From: Candidatus Pantoea edessiphila
GTDB lineage: Bacteria > Pseudomonadota > Gammaproteobacteria > Enterobacterales > Enterobacteriaceae
Reading direction: 5' to 3'
DNA: 64,000 nt
NCBI RefSeq assembly: GCF_002933345.1
Contig: NZ_PDKR01000003.1
Location: forward strand, 1-64,000
Part shown: piece by piece, positions 41,396 to 64,000 of the stretch
Layout of the letters: every line of letters starts with the position of its first letter
How positions within the stretch are numbered: position 1 is the first letter of the stretch
Notes under the pieces: generated by a model
What the model saw: the letters and a program-made list of their open reading frames with translations, nothing else
The model's database searches: none
What the model was told of the DNA's origin: nothing
Translations under genes and position numbers: made by a program

Positions 41396-42976
41396 ATGTG
41401 TAATTCCTTTTTAGAAGAGGTCGCACGTCGTCGCACCTTTGCAATTATATCCCATCCAGATGCTGGCAAAACTACAATTACAGAAAAAATATTACTGTTT
41501 GGTAAAGTAATTAAGACAGCTGGTACAATAAAAAGTCGTGGCTCAAATAAATATGCTAAATCTGATTGGATGCAAATTGAAAAACAAAGAGGTATATCTG
41601 TTACTACATCTGTAATGCAATTTTTATACTGCGGTAAATTAATTAATTTATTGGATACTCCTGGACACAAAGATTTCTCAGATGATACTTATCGTACTTT
41701 AGCTGCGGTTGACTGCTGTTTAATGATTATTGATGCTTCTAAAGGTGTAGAAGAAAGAACTCATAAATTAATGGAAGTTGCACGATTAAACGATATACCT
41801 GTTTTAACTTTTATGAATAAATTTGATTGTGATATACGTGATCCATTTGATTTATTAGATGAAACAGAAAAAAAACTTAATATTGATTGTACACCAATTA
41901 CTTGGCCAATAGGTTTTGGTAAAAATTTCAAGGGTAGTTATAATCTTTACAACGATATTATATATAAATATCAAGCTGGAAAAGGTCATAAAATAAAAGA
42001 ATTGAACATTATTGAAGGTATTGATAATTATAATCTTGATGCTGAGATAGGTAGTGAACTAGCCATGAAATTACGTAGTGATATTAAATTAATAAAAGAA
42101 TCTTTTTTTGAGTTTGATCAAAAAAAATTTTTAAATGGTAAATTATCCCCTGTACTTTTTGGTTCTGCATTGGGTAATTTCGGCATTGATCATATATTAA
42201 ACTATTTAGTTTCATGGGCTCCATCTCCGATGCCACGTAATACAGATATGCGTTTGGTGTATCCAAAAGAAAAAAAATTTTCTGGATTTGTATTTAAAAT
42301 TCAAGCTAATATGGATCCAAAACATCACGATAGAATAGCATTTATTCGTATAGTATCTGGAAAATATAACAAAGGTATGAAATTATATCATGTTCGTACT
42401 AAAAAAAATATGATTATTTCTGATGCATTGACGTTCATAGCTGGTGATAGAATACATACAAAAGAAGCATATTCAGGTGATATTATAGGTTTGCATAATC
42501 ATGGTTCCATTAAGATTGGTGACACCTTTACACAAGGTGAAAACATAAATTTTTTAGGAATTACTAAATTTGCTCCTGAAATTTTTCATAGTGTTCGTCC
42601 TAAAGATCCTTTTAGGCAAAAGCAATTATATAATGGCTTGGTTGAAATATCAGAAGAGGGTAATGTACAATTCTTTCGTATTATTCATAATAACGAATGT
42701 ATTATTGGTACAATAGGTATGCTACAATTTGATATGGTTGTATCACGTTTGAATTATGAATATAAAGTAGAAGCTATATATACAAATGTTAAAATTTCTA
42801 CTGTACGTTGGTTAGAATGTAATAATTTTAAAAAATTTCAATCATTTCAAAATAATCATAAAGCAAATATTGCATTAGATAGCAATAATAATATAATATA
42901 TATCGCTTACAATATGGTTAATTTAAAAATTGTACAAGAACGTTATCCAGAAATTATTTTTAATAAAACCCAATAA
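41396..42976 (+). CDS. prfC: Peptide chain release factor 3
   Basis: GTPase that recycles RF1/RF2 after termination. G1 is [13 protein letters not shown] near 20, G3 is [14 protein letters not shown] near 87, and G4 is NKFD. The C-terminal RF3-specific domain has [11 protein letters not shown]-type motif [11 protein letters not shown]. Its 526 residues match E. coli (529). It is dispensable in E. coli and often lost from small genomes, so an intact copy is notable. Confidence 0.96.
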
Positions 42977-44829: not shown

Positions 44830-45974
44830 ATGTATTATTTACCTCCATTAGGTCTTTATATTCATATACCTTGGTGTATAAAAAAATGTTACTATTGCGA
44901 TTTTAATTCACATCGATTAAAAAAAAAATATCATATGTTGATTATATACATCATGTTTTGTTAGATCTTAAAAATGATCTTCATTTAATTAATAATAGAA
45001 TAATAAATACTATTTTTATTGGAGGTGGAACACCTAGTTTACTAGACATAAAATCCATAGAATTATTAATGAATGGGATCAAAGATAATTTAAATCTTAA
45101 ATCAGATGTAGAAATTTCAATAGAAGTTAATCCTGGTGCTATTGAGGTTGATCTCCTGTATTTTTATAAGTTTATTGGAATTAATCGTATTTCGATAGGT
45201 GCTCAGAGTTTCAACGAACTCAATTTGAATTCTTTAGGCCGTATTCATACGTCAAAAGAAATAAGTGATACAATACATTTAATTAAAAGTGTTGGATTTA
45301 ATAACTTTAATATTGATTTAATGCATGGTTTACCAAAACAATCATTAAAAGAAGCTTTAAATGATTTAAATCAAGCTATTTTGCTTAACCCTTCTCACAT
45401 ATCATGGTATCAATTGACTATTGAACCTAATACAGTGTTCAATATGATGCAAGATATTAAATTACCTAAGGATAGTATATTATGGAATATTTTTACAAAA
45501 GGACACGATTTATTAATCAATCGTGGTTATAAACAATACGAAGTTTCAAATTATTCAAAACCAAATTACCATTGTAAACATAATATCAATTATTGGTATT
45601 TTGGTGATTATCTTGGTATTGGTTGTGGCGCTCATGGCAAGGTGACACAATTAAATGGTAAGATCATAAGAACTATAAAAACTCGTCATCCTAAAGGATT
45701 TATGGAAGGGTTTTATCTTCATAAAAAATATTTTGTTTCTGATATCGATAAACCTTTTGAATATTTTATGAATAGATTTCGTCTAATAAAACATTTATCT
45801 CGTAAAGAATTTGAGCTATTTACTGGTTTAAAGGAAAAAACTGTTAGATCAAATATAGATATAGCAGTGTCTTTAGGTTATATAATTGAAACAAAAAAAA
45901 ATTGGAAAATTACCAAGAAGGGAAGGTTATTTCTAAATGATTTATTGGAATTATTTTTAATAAAAAATAAATGA
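44830..45974 (+). CDS. hemW: HemW heme chaperone (radical SAM family), frameshift at a poly-A run
   Basis: Heme-binding radical SAM protein related to coproporphyrinogen dehydrogenase. The natural start is ATG 44830. The first frame gives YIHIPWC and the Fe-S ligands C16, C20, C23 (CX3CX2C). It ends at a stop about 20 codons later because of a break in the ten A bases at 44919-44928. Adding one A joins it to the second frame (VDYIHHVLLDL, FIGGGTPSLLD, GIGCGAHGKVT) as a gap-free 381-residue HemW (E. coli 378). The downstream frame alone (TTG 44958) lacks the cluster. It is either rescued by polymerase slippage or is an early pseudogene. Confidence 0.88.
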
Positions 45975-62767: not shown

Positions 62768-64000
62768 TTTATTGATATTACATGTTATTATAGATTTTTG
62801 TTGATTATTATTTACAATTTATTAAGTTAATAATTATTGTGAAATTTTCATTTTATGATTTATAATGAACTTATAATAAATAACTTAATCTTTTTATCTT
62901 ATTCCTTAAACAAGGATAGTTTTACAAGGATAGTTTCACCATGAGTAAAATTATTTTTGTCTTCTAATATTTTAAAAATACGACCAACTATTTGCCAAAT
63001 TTATTGCCTATTGATTTTAACTTGCATTCCATCTGCAATCTGGATAGTATTTAGTTGTTTAGTTATTATATTTATAAGCATTTTAGAAATGGTTTTTTTA
63101 CATCTAAAAATATCAGGATAAAACTTTTTCAGATGTAACTTGTAAACGATGAGTACTTTTGATGAGATTATTAATTAATATGTTTGATATTTAGATGAAT
63201 TAATTCATCTAAATTTTTATATGAAATTTCAGCTACTTCACATGCAATTTCTACACGGACCGCAAGTGCTACTTTCTTAAATTTTTTAAATAGTCTAAGT
63301 TCACTAATAAAACTACTTGATTAAAAAAATAATTATGTTTTTCCCATAAAAATTCAATTTTATTGTTAAATGATTCGATTTTTTTTATTAGAAAGATCTA
63401 TTCTTAAATCCTTAAATTTTTAGTATTAATGTTTTTAGATACAAAAAAAACTAAACGTAAAATTACTTGTTTAATTACTATATGCAATTACATAAGTTTA
63501 ATTGAATTTTTAAAATTTAATATAATAGTGTTAGCAATTAACCGATTAATAATATTTATTTATAATTTTACTATTTTAACTATTTAACCAATAATATACG
63601 AACTTATATAAGTGATATTTAATAAACATTGACTGAATATCATTCTAAAATATTCATAATATTTGCAAAATATTAATTGTATTATTACGACAAAATTACT
63701 ATAATCTATCAATTAATGATATTTGGAATTAATCTATCAATAAAAATTTCAAAAAAATTAATCTAAAATATAAATATTATTAATATATAACCATTAAATA
63801 ATTTATAATTTTTTTTAATTTGATTAATGCTTATCTTGTATAATAGTTATATATCTTTTAAATTAAATTATTGTAACCTATATAAAGTTGAATTTTAGTT
63901 ATTTATTTATCATTGGTATTAGTTAATGAATAAAAACTCACATTAGAAAATCAAAAAAATGTTTTTTTAATCTCTCATATTATTTTATTATAATCATAAA
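62768..64000. other. 1.2-kb noncoding region with a decayed minus-strand coding trace
   Basis: No intact gene. The part at about 62925-63420 is less A/T-pure than other spacers. Read leftwards it gives protein-like segments broken by stops and frameshifts, such as VALAVRVEIACEVAEISY (about 63270-63215) and IQIADGMQVKIN (about 63045-63010). I could not assign a family. From about 63450 to 64000 nothing is recognisable. Confidence 0.5.
62911..62936 (+). repeat. 12-bp direct repeat
   Basis: CAAGGATAGTTT occurs at 62911-62922 and 62925-62936, period 14. It lies at the 3' end of the decayed minus-strand coding trace and looks like a slippage duplication. Confidence 0.8.

Follow-up and report, generated by a model that had tools for sequence, protein, structure and literature searches.

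The hemW gene at 44830..45974 (+) of the DNA stretch analysed here (64,000 nucleotides, referred to as the window) is probably a working gene which carries a standing -1 frameshift in a run of ten A and is rescued by RNA polymerase slippage adding an A. From the sequence evidence we give this reading a probability of roughly 0.7. Slippage of RNA polymerase on the A10 run would make the hemW transcripts vary in length; full-length HemW would come from those that gained one A, or that differ by some other number restoring the phase, and a 44-aa fragment from the remainder. Were the full-length HemW sufficient, the short run would be tolerated and may arise, persist or revert, and the same slippage rescue may serve a number of further genes of these symbionts. 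What we infer is the slippage itself, how much product it gives and that the polymerase, more than the ribosome, is its main agent. Two points go beyond the initial annotation: the window comes from a Pantoea-type symbiont of stink bugs, and the hemW break is one of a set.

The hemW break in the window

The window belongs to a genome of 835,639 bases in 12 contigs (G000) from the Candidatus Pantoea edessiphila group, Pantoea-type symbionts of stink bugs. Its hemW gene, coding for a radical SAM heme chaperone, lies downstream of a gene which by translation we take to be yggS-like and upstream of genes that are presumably yggX-, ruvX- and gshB-like. The gene is made up of two frames meeting at a poly-A run. 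The first is a zero-frame ORF of 44 aa (44830..44964, +) with an ATG start and a stop codon at 44962-44964, and the second is a downstream open frame of 355 codons plus stop (44907..45974, +) which has no start codon ahead of the run. The run itself (44919..44928, +) is where the gene breaks and where slippage is proposed to occur; sequence and translation show it to be exactly ten A and the sole break of hemW. The initial annotation had placed a hemW of 381 codons, one A short, at these coordinates, and this proved right in each respect. A second A run of the gene, of nine A (45893..45901, +), is in frame.

The codons for the CX3CX2C cluster (CIKKCYYC; 44875..44898, +), as read from sequence and translation, sit in the 5′ part of the gene, ahead of the break and out of frame with the 355-codon frame. 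The earliest start-like codon in the downstream frame, TTG at 44958, lies 3′ of the Fe-S cluster, so that an internal start there would give a HemW without the cluster. Joining the two frames at the run gives a product of 381 aa, which matches the NCBIfam HemW equivalog TIGR00539 with 409.5 bits (cut-off 205.4) in a single stretch, residues 9-369 against profile positions 3-361 of 361. This whole-protein match, together with the CIKKCYYC motif in the translation, identifies the product as HemW and agrees with the earlier observation that both halves align without a break from the cluster onward. No other lesion was found in the 381 codons, as had also been claimed, the 355-codon frame being open and the family match full-length. 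Features of the slippage class found with hemW are a break confined to a homopolymer of about nine or more A/T, no other lesion and purifying selection, the last seen with both hemW and accA.

The 836-kb genome has 28 distinct A/T tracts of at least ten, of which the break hits one, and a second species, G004, is broken at the same tract, which argues against chance. An assembly one A short, with a true run of 11 A, is a very improbable source of the break. Homopolymers are error-prone and the poly-A breaks described below all go in one direction, as such an error might leave them. Nevertheless, the assemblies of these genomes do contain in-frame poly-A runs of greater length (A11, n = 9; A13-A16, n = 3) beside A10 (n = 66), and the same break recurs in separate assemblies, in two for hemW and in three each for accA, fdhD and rluD, so that a general undercall of A11 is disfavoured. 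In addition, hemW of G004 is broken at A9, and Illumina MiSeq is the platform given for the new genomes of the Pantoea edessiphila study (PMC8032781).

Two other loci of the window are worth recording. For an ORF of 526 aa at 41396-42976 (+), which we take to be prfC-like, the syntenic contig of G004 holds a 71% orthologue; on those of G001, G002, G003 and G005 the matches reach no more than 26-28% and are to a longer protein. At 63066-63189 (-) lies the G000 orthologue of a gene which in G001 and G005 codes for 210 aa; its changes of frame are supported by all five congeners and, in contrast to hemW, it looks like real decay.

hemW among the congeners and selection on the gene

hemW is present in all five congeners (G001-G005) and in 55 of the 60 relatives searched. 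Among the six genomes it is broken in G000 and G004 and intact in G001, G002, G003 and G005. The run in G000 reads TTA, nine further A, then TAT, while that in G004 reads TTA, eight further A and G, making it an A9 with a -1 break in the same phase as G000. The run of G002 (TTA, nine further A and G; A10+G) is in frame, and in G001, G003 and G005 the run is interrupted and the frame open.

A tree built from 31 six-way orthologues (9,503 aa, hemW excluded) gave (G000,(G004,(G001,(G002,G005)))) with G003 as outgroup. The AU test rejected the three topologies tested in which G000 and G004 are sisters (p 0.0008-0.032 over three models); another topology without this pairing (tree 8) was not rejected (p 0.07-0.09). 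Common descent of the hemW break was therefore dropped as proof of its age. With G000 and G004 being non-sisters, the breaks are either parallel or a single old break that later reverted, and each of them could be young.

This bears on whether hemW is simply a young pseudogene in G000 and, separately, in G004, which we regard as improbable. The breaks are not accounted for by any exclusive ancestor shared by the two, and long A runs are prone to indels, both of which suit such a decay. Against it stand the 381 codons free of any other lesion, the retention of hemW in every congener, the clade-wide and constrained accA breaks (see below) and the rate at which the gene evolves. In the downstream part of hemW, G000 and G004 share 72.2% amino acid identity compared with 72.1% for the concatenated genes, and their differences at codon positions 1, 2 and 3 are 0.251, 0.110 and 0.325. 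The pN/pS of this pair is 0.334, with synonymous sites close to saturation, and lies within the range of the six intact-species pairs (0.264-0.507). The hemW branches of G000 and G004 take up 0.113 and 0.125 of the gene tree, against means of 0.115 and 0.130 for the 31 genes. hemW thus appears to be no faster on the two broken branches, with constraint as in the intact lineages, although rate and pN/pS are less informative if the breaks are recent. The sole long branch in the hemW tree, 0.172 and above all 31 comparison genes, is that of G001 (L068), where the frame is intact.

The preference of the initial annotation for rescue over decay thus finds support in the break of G004 at the same tract, the lack of acceleration, the pN/pS within the intact range and the other broken genes, including accA broken throughout a clade. 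A further possibility, that genomes with 10 A and with 11 A coexist in the symbiont population and the assembly shows the majority form, appears to be the least probable of all. It is in keeping with the variation in hemW run length among the congeners, but the breaks of accA and fdhD extend to all members of a clade, suggesting the short form to be fixed.

Other genes broken at poly-A runs and the direction of the breaks

In the six congeners, 142 A/T tracts of at least ten were read (28 in G000 and 114 in G001-G005), a -1 label meaning one nucleotide short or two too many. Poly-A frame breaks at A runs of at least ten were found in 20 instances in 14 genes, all -1, namely hemW, ppk, murI and pqiC in G000; accA and fdhD in G001; accA, fdhD, rluD and dusA in G002; murC, holA, pdxB and era in G003; rluD and ygfA in G004; and nadK, accA, fdhD and rluD in G005. 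Two further -1 breaks lie at A9, these being hemW in G004 and rlmB in G005. In E. coli, six of these genes (accA, nadK, murC, murI, era and holA) are essential.

The NCBIfam scan covered each of the 14 genes with one representative, plus a further accA. The curated cut-off was passed by 13 of the 14, with pdxB failing; this gene and cdsA (see below) give full-length family matches which score below their curated cut-offs. The match of fdhD to its cut-off model starts 3′ of the run, and ppk is truncated by the end of the locus. Identification was by similarity only for rluD of G002 and G005, accA of G002 and fdhD of G001 and G005, and rlmB of G005 is likewise without a family scan of its own.

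Three loci were removed before counting: degP in G005 (L237, labelled +1), where the run precedes the start codon; L121 in G000, where an ATG lies immediately 5′ of the run and in frame; and a ThiI-like remnant in G005 (L245, labelled -1). The last is a short rhodanese-like piece broken at an A10 run and presumably resembling the C-terminus of ThiI, with other thiI sequence being absent from the three frames just upstream. Breaks at poly-T were counted separately and comprise cdsA (+1; L262) and lptF (-1; L282), both in G003 and both at T10 on the coding strand.

With regard to shorter runs, no real break was found in a sample of 30 of the 127 A9 runs of G000, the lone candidate (L210) covering two genes. 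An automatic scan of the syntenic contigs overlooked the hemW break of G004, making its negatives soft. In three other reduced genomes, 36 tracts at 30 loci were read out of 435 matches and gave three candidates, too few to judge, two being -1 and one +1 near a C-terminus. The two -1 breaks, at A11 (L309, G023) and A10 (L323, G035), lie in genes which we take to resemble rsmD and murB, respectively. It may also be mentioned that G000 has two A16 runs in frame, located within open genes or at their start (L124, G000:C5:181639-181654; L152, G000:C9:37260-37275), which by translation look like sohB and cyoA.

Persistence of such breaks is best seen with accA, whose open frame is 277, 278 and 278 codons in G001, G002 and G005 and 320-325 codons in G000, G003 and G004. 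All three broken copies have A10 at the same place, with a zero-frame stop a few codons later. Over 252 downstream codons the pN/pS of the broken trio is 0.14-0.21 compared with 0.23 for the intact pair G000-G003, G004 having been left out of this comparison. fdhD is also broken in G001, G002 and G005, while it is intact in G004 and has no match in G000 and G003. As evidence it is weaker than accA, as its N-terminus is poorly conserved and the family match misses the run; moreover, the intact fdhD of G004 has A8, so that the broken run may have two A too many rather than one too few. G001, G002 and G005 form one clade, all three members of which have both accA and fdhD broken, and such clade-wide breaks under purifying selection are hard to explain unless the full-length protein is made.

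The breaks are also strictly polar. None of the genuine poly-A breaks, at the A/T tracts of at least ten of the six congeners or in the A9 cases, is +1, and all 15 genes (rlmB included) are -1, for which p is 6e-5 under equal odds of both directions, a value that loses weight because some of the genes are orthologues shared between species, gene boundaries are soft and replication may itself favour deletions. As a control, 59 in-frame poly-A tracts were shortened or lengthened in silico by one A; the direction was called correctly in 59 and 59 cases and a break was labelled in 48 (removed) and 50 (added). This polarity is what an insertion-biased polymerase slippage would leave, and replication bias to shorter runs could contribute to it.

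Slippage has a comparable bias in Buchnera, where insertions outnumber deletions among transcription indels (157 to 70), and homopolymers account for 151 of the insertions compared with just 15 or 16 of the deletions (PMC5574713). In an E. coli reporter, poly-T allowed rescue by deletion, which none of the poly-A runs studied did (PMC6260861), and the position of the only +1 break, cdsA, at a poly-T agrees with this. Also in E. coli, under selection for a working enzyme, -1 changes went from 69 to 90% of indels, in an experiment that does not tell polymerase from ribosome (PMC3812077). Against such a bias, work cited in PMC6260861 describes the direction as variable at runs of nine or more and, in one study with the E. 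coli polymerase in vitro at A11, deletions as predominating.

Agent of the proposed rescue, comparable systems and significance

RNA polymerase slippage is the best-supported mechanism, given that every poly-A break can be corrected by an inserted A, the main direction of transcription indels at Buchnera homopolymers (PMC5574713). In-frame transcripts of 12-50% have been reported at such runs in an aphid and an ant symbiont (Tamas 2008, as cited in PMC5009743), although the Buchnera study found no transcription error that restored a frame (PMC5574713).

A ribosomal -1 shift on A_AAA_AAA (G000) or A_AAA_AAG (G004) would restore the frame and give the same protein, and every poly-A break could likewise be corrected by such a shift. 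Slippery heptamers are found in hemW of both G000 and G004, and A_AAA_AAG ends the runs of G004 hemW and G005 rlmB in the zero-frame phase. Reporter cassettes in E. coli with 11, 9 and 7 A gave 63, 40 and 10% frameshifting, the passage concerned not resolving the level at which this occurs (PMC3711429). On the other hand, pseudoknots aside, the 75 nt 3′ of the hemW run fold into stem-loops no better than shuffles (z 0.22 in G000 and 0.26 in G004). Among eight of the 22 broken instances, including both hemW, the lowest z for a stem-loop after the run was -1.95 (murC), the others being -1.24 to 2.05. Nor was a Shine-Dalgarno-like stimulator evident by eye in the 24 nt before the hemW run. No break was found on A7 or A8 runs, which have the same heptamer, in the syntenic-contig scan that missed G004 hemW, and shorter runs also mutate less. 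We thus consider ribosomal shifting unlikely as the explanation and rank polymerase slippage first, with a ribosomal share being possible; both lead to the same HemW.

The initial annotation had pointed to Buchnera and Blochmannia, and the analogy holds for the kind of poly-A break but not for the organism, as the window belongs to another symbiont group. The poly-A genes of these bacteria have, as here, a single indel in a run of 9-11 A in an otherwise intact gene evolving at an ordinary rate in a reduced, AT-rich insect symbiont, and in Blochmannia two genes have independent breaks or a reversion, as with hemW (PMC3017870). They differ in that hemW is not among the genes named in the section of PMC3017870 on such genes, in that the set described here comprises 14 genes at A runs of at least ten in six species, all -1 at poly-A, and in that their rescue has cDNA evidence while the present breaks are known from DNA. 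The dnaX gene of Thermus thermophilus resembles hemW in having a homopolymer of about nine A or T at which the polymerase adds bases, giving several frames per gene (PMC5009743). The Thermus gene, however, is in frame at the DNA level and slips to make a shorter product on purpose, whereas in hemW the frame is lost in the DNA and slippage would bring it back. In E. coli dnaX a -1 ribosomal shift takes place on A_AAA_AAG (PMC3711429). This heptamer also occurs, correctly phased, in hemW of G004 and rlmB of G005, and A_AAA_AAA in the window, but unlike E. coli dnaX the hemW run lacks a stable 3′ structure or an evident upstream Shine-Dalgarno-like stimulator.

No earlier report of these breaks or their polarity was met in the literature on P. 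edessiphila, Edessa symbionts and symbiont slippage or frameshifts, a scope outside which Tamas 2008 and Wernegreen 2010 fall, and a literature search for stinkbug symbionts and slippage found no paper. In the main text of PMC8032781 the terms "frameshift" and "hemW" are absent and "slippage" occurs once. Rescue of poly-A frameshifts is a known phenomenon and its putative extension to another group of insect symbionts fits as what is new here, the six species showing that essential genes are involved and that breaks persist throughout a clade.

As a tentative and rather doubtful generalization, frame-keeping at poly-A may have been handed over to the expression machinery in this symbiont group, with runs one A short being tolerated in any gene, essential ones included, and the opposite change being purged. 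The polarity (14 genes at A runs of at least ten plus rlmB at A9, versus none) would then be a fingerprint of the direction in which RNA polymerase or the ribosome slips, readable from DNA alone. Such strict polarity predicts messages with one extra A and few with one fewer. It also follows that automatic annotation may label working genes such as accA, nadK and hemW as pseudogenes.
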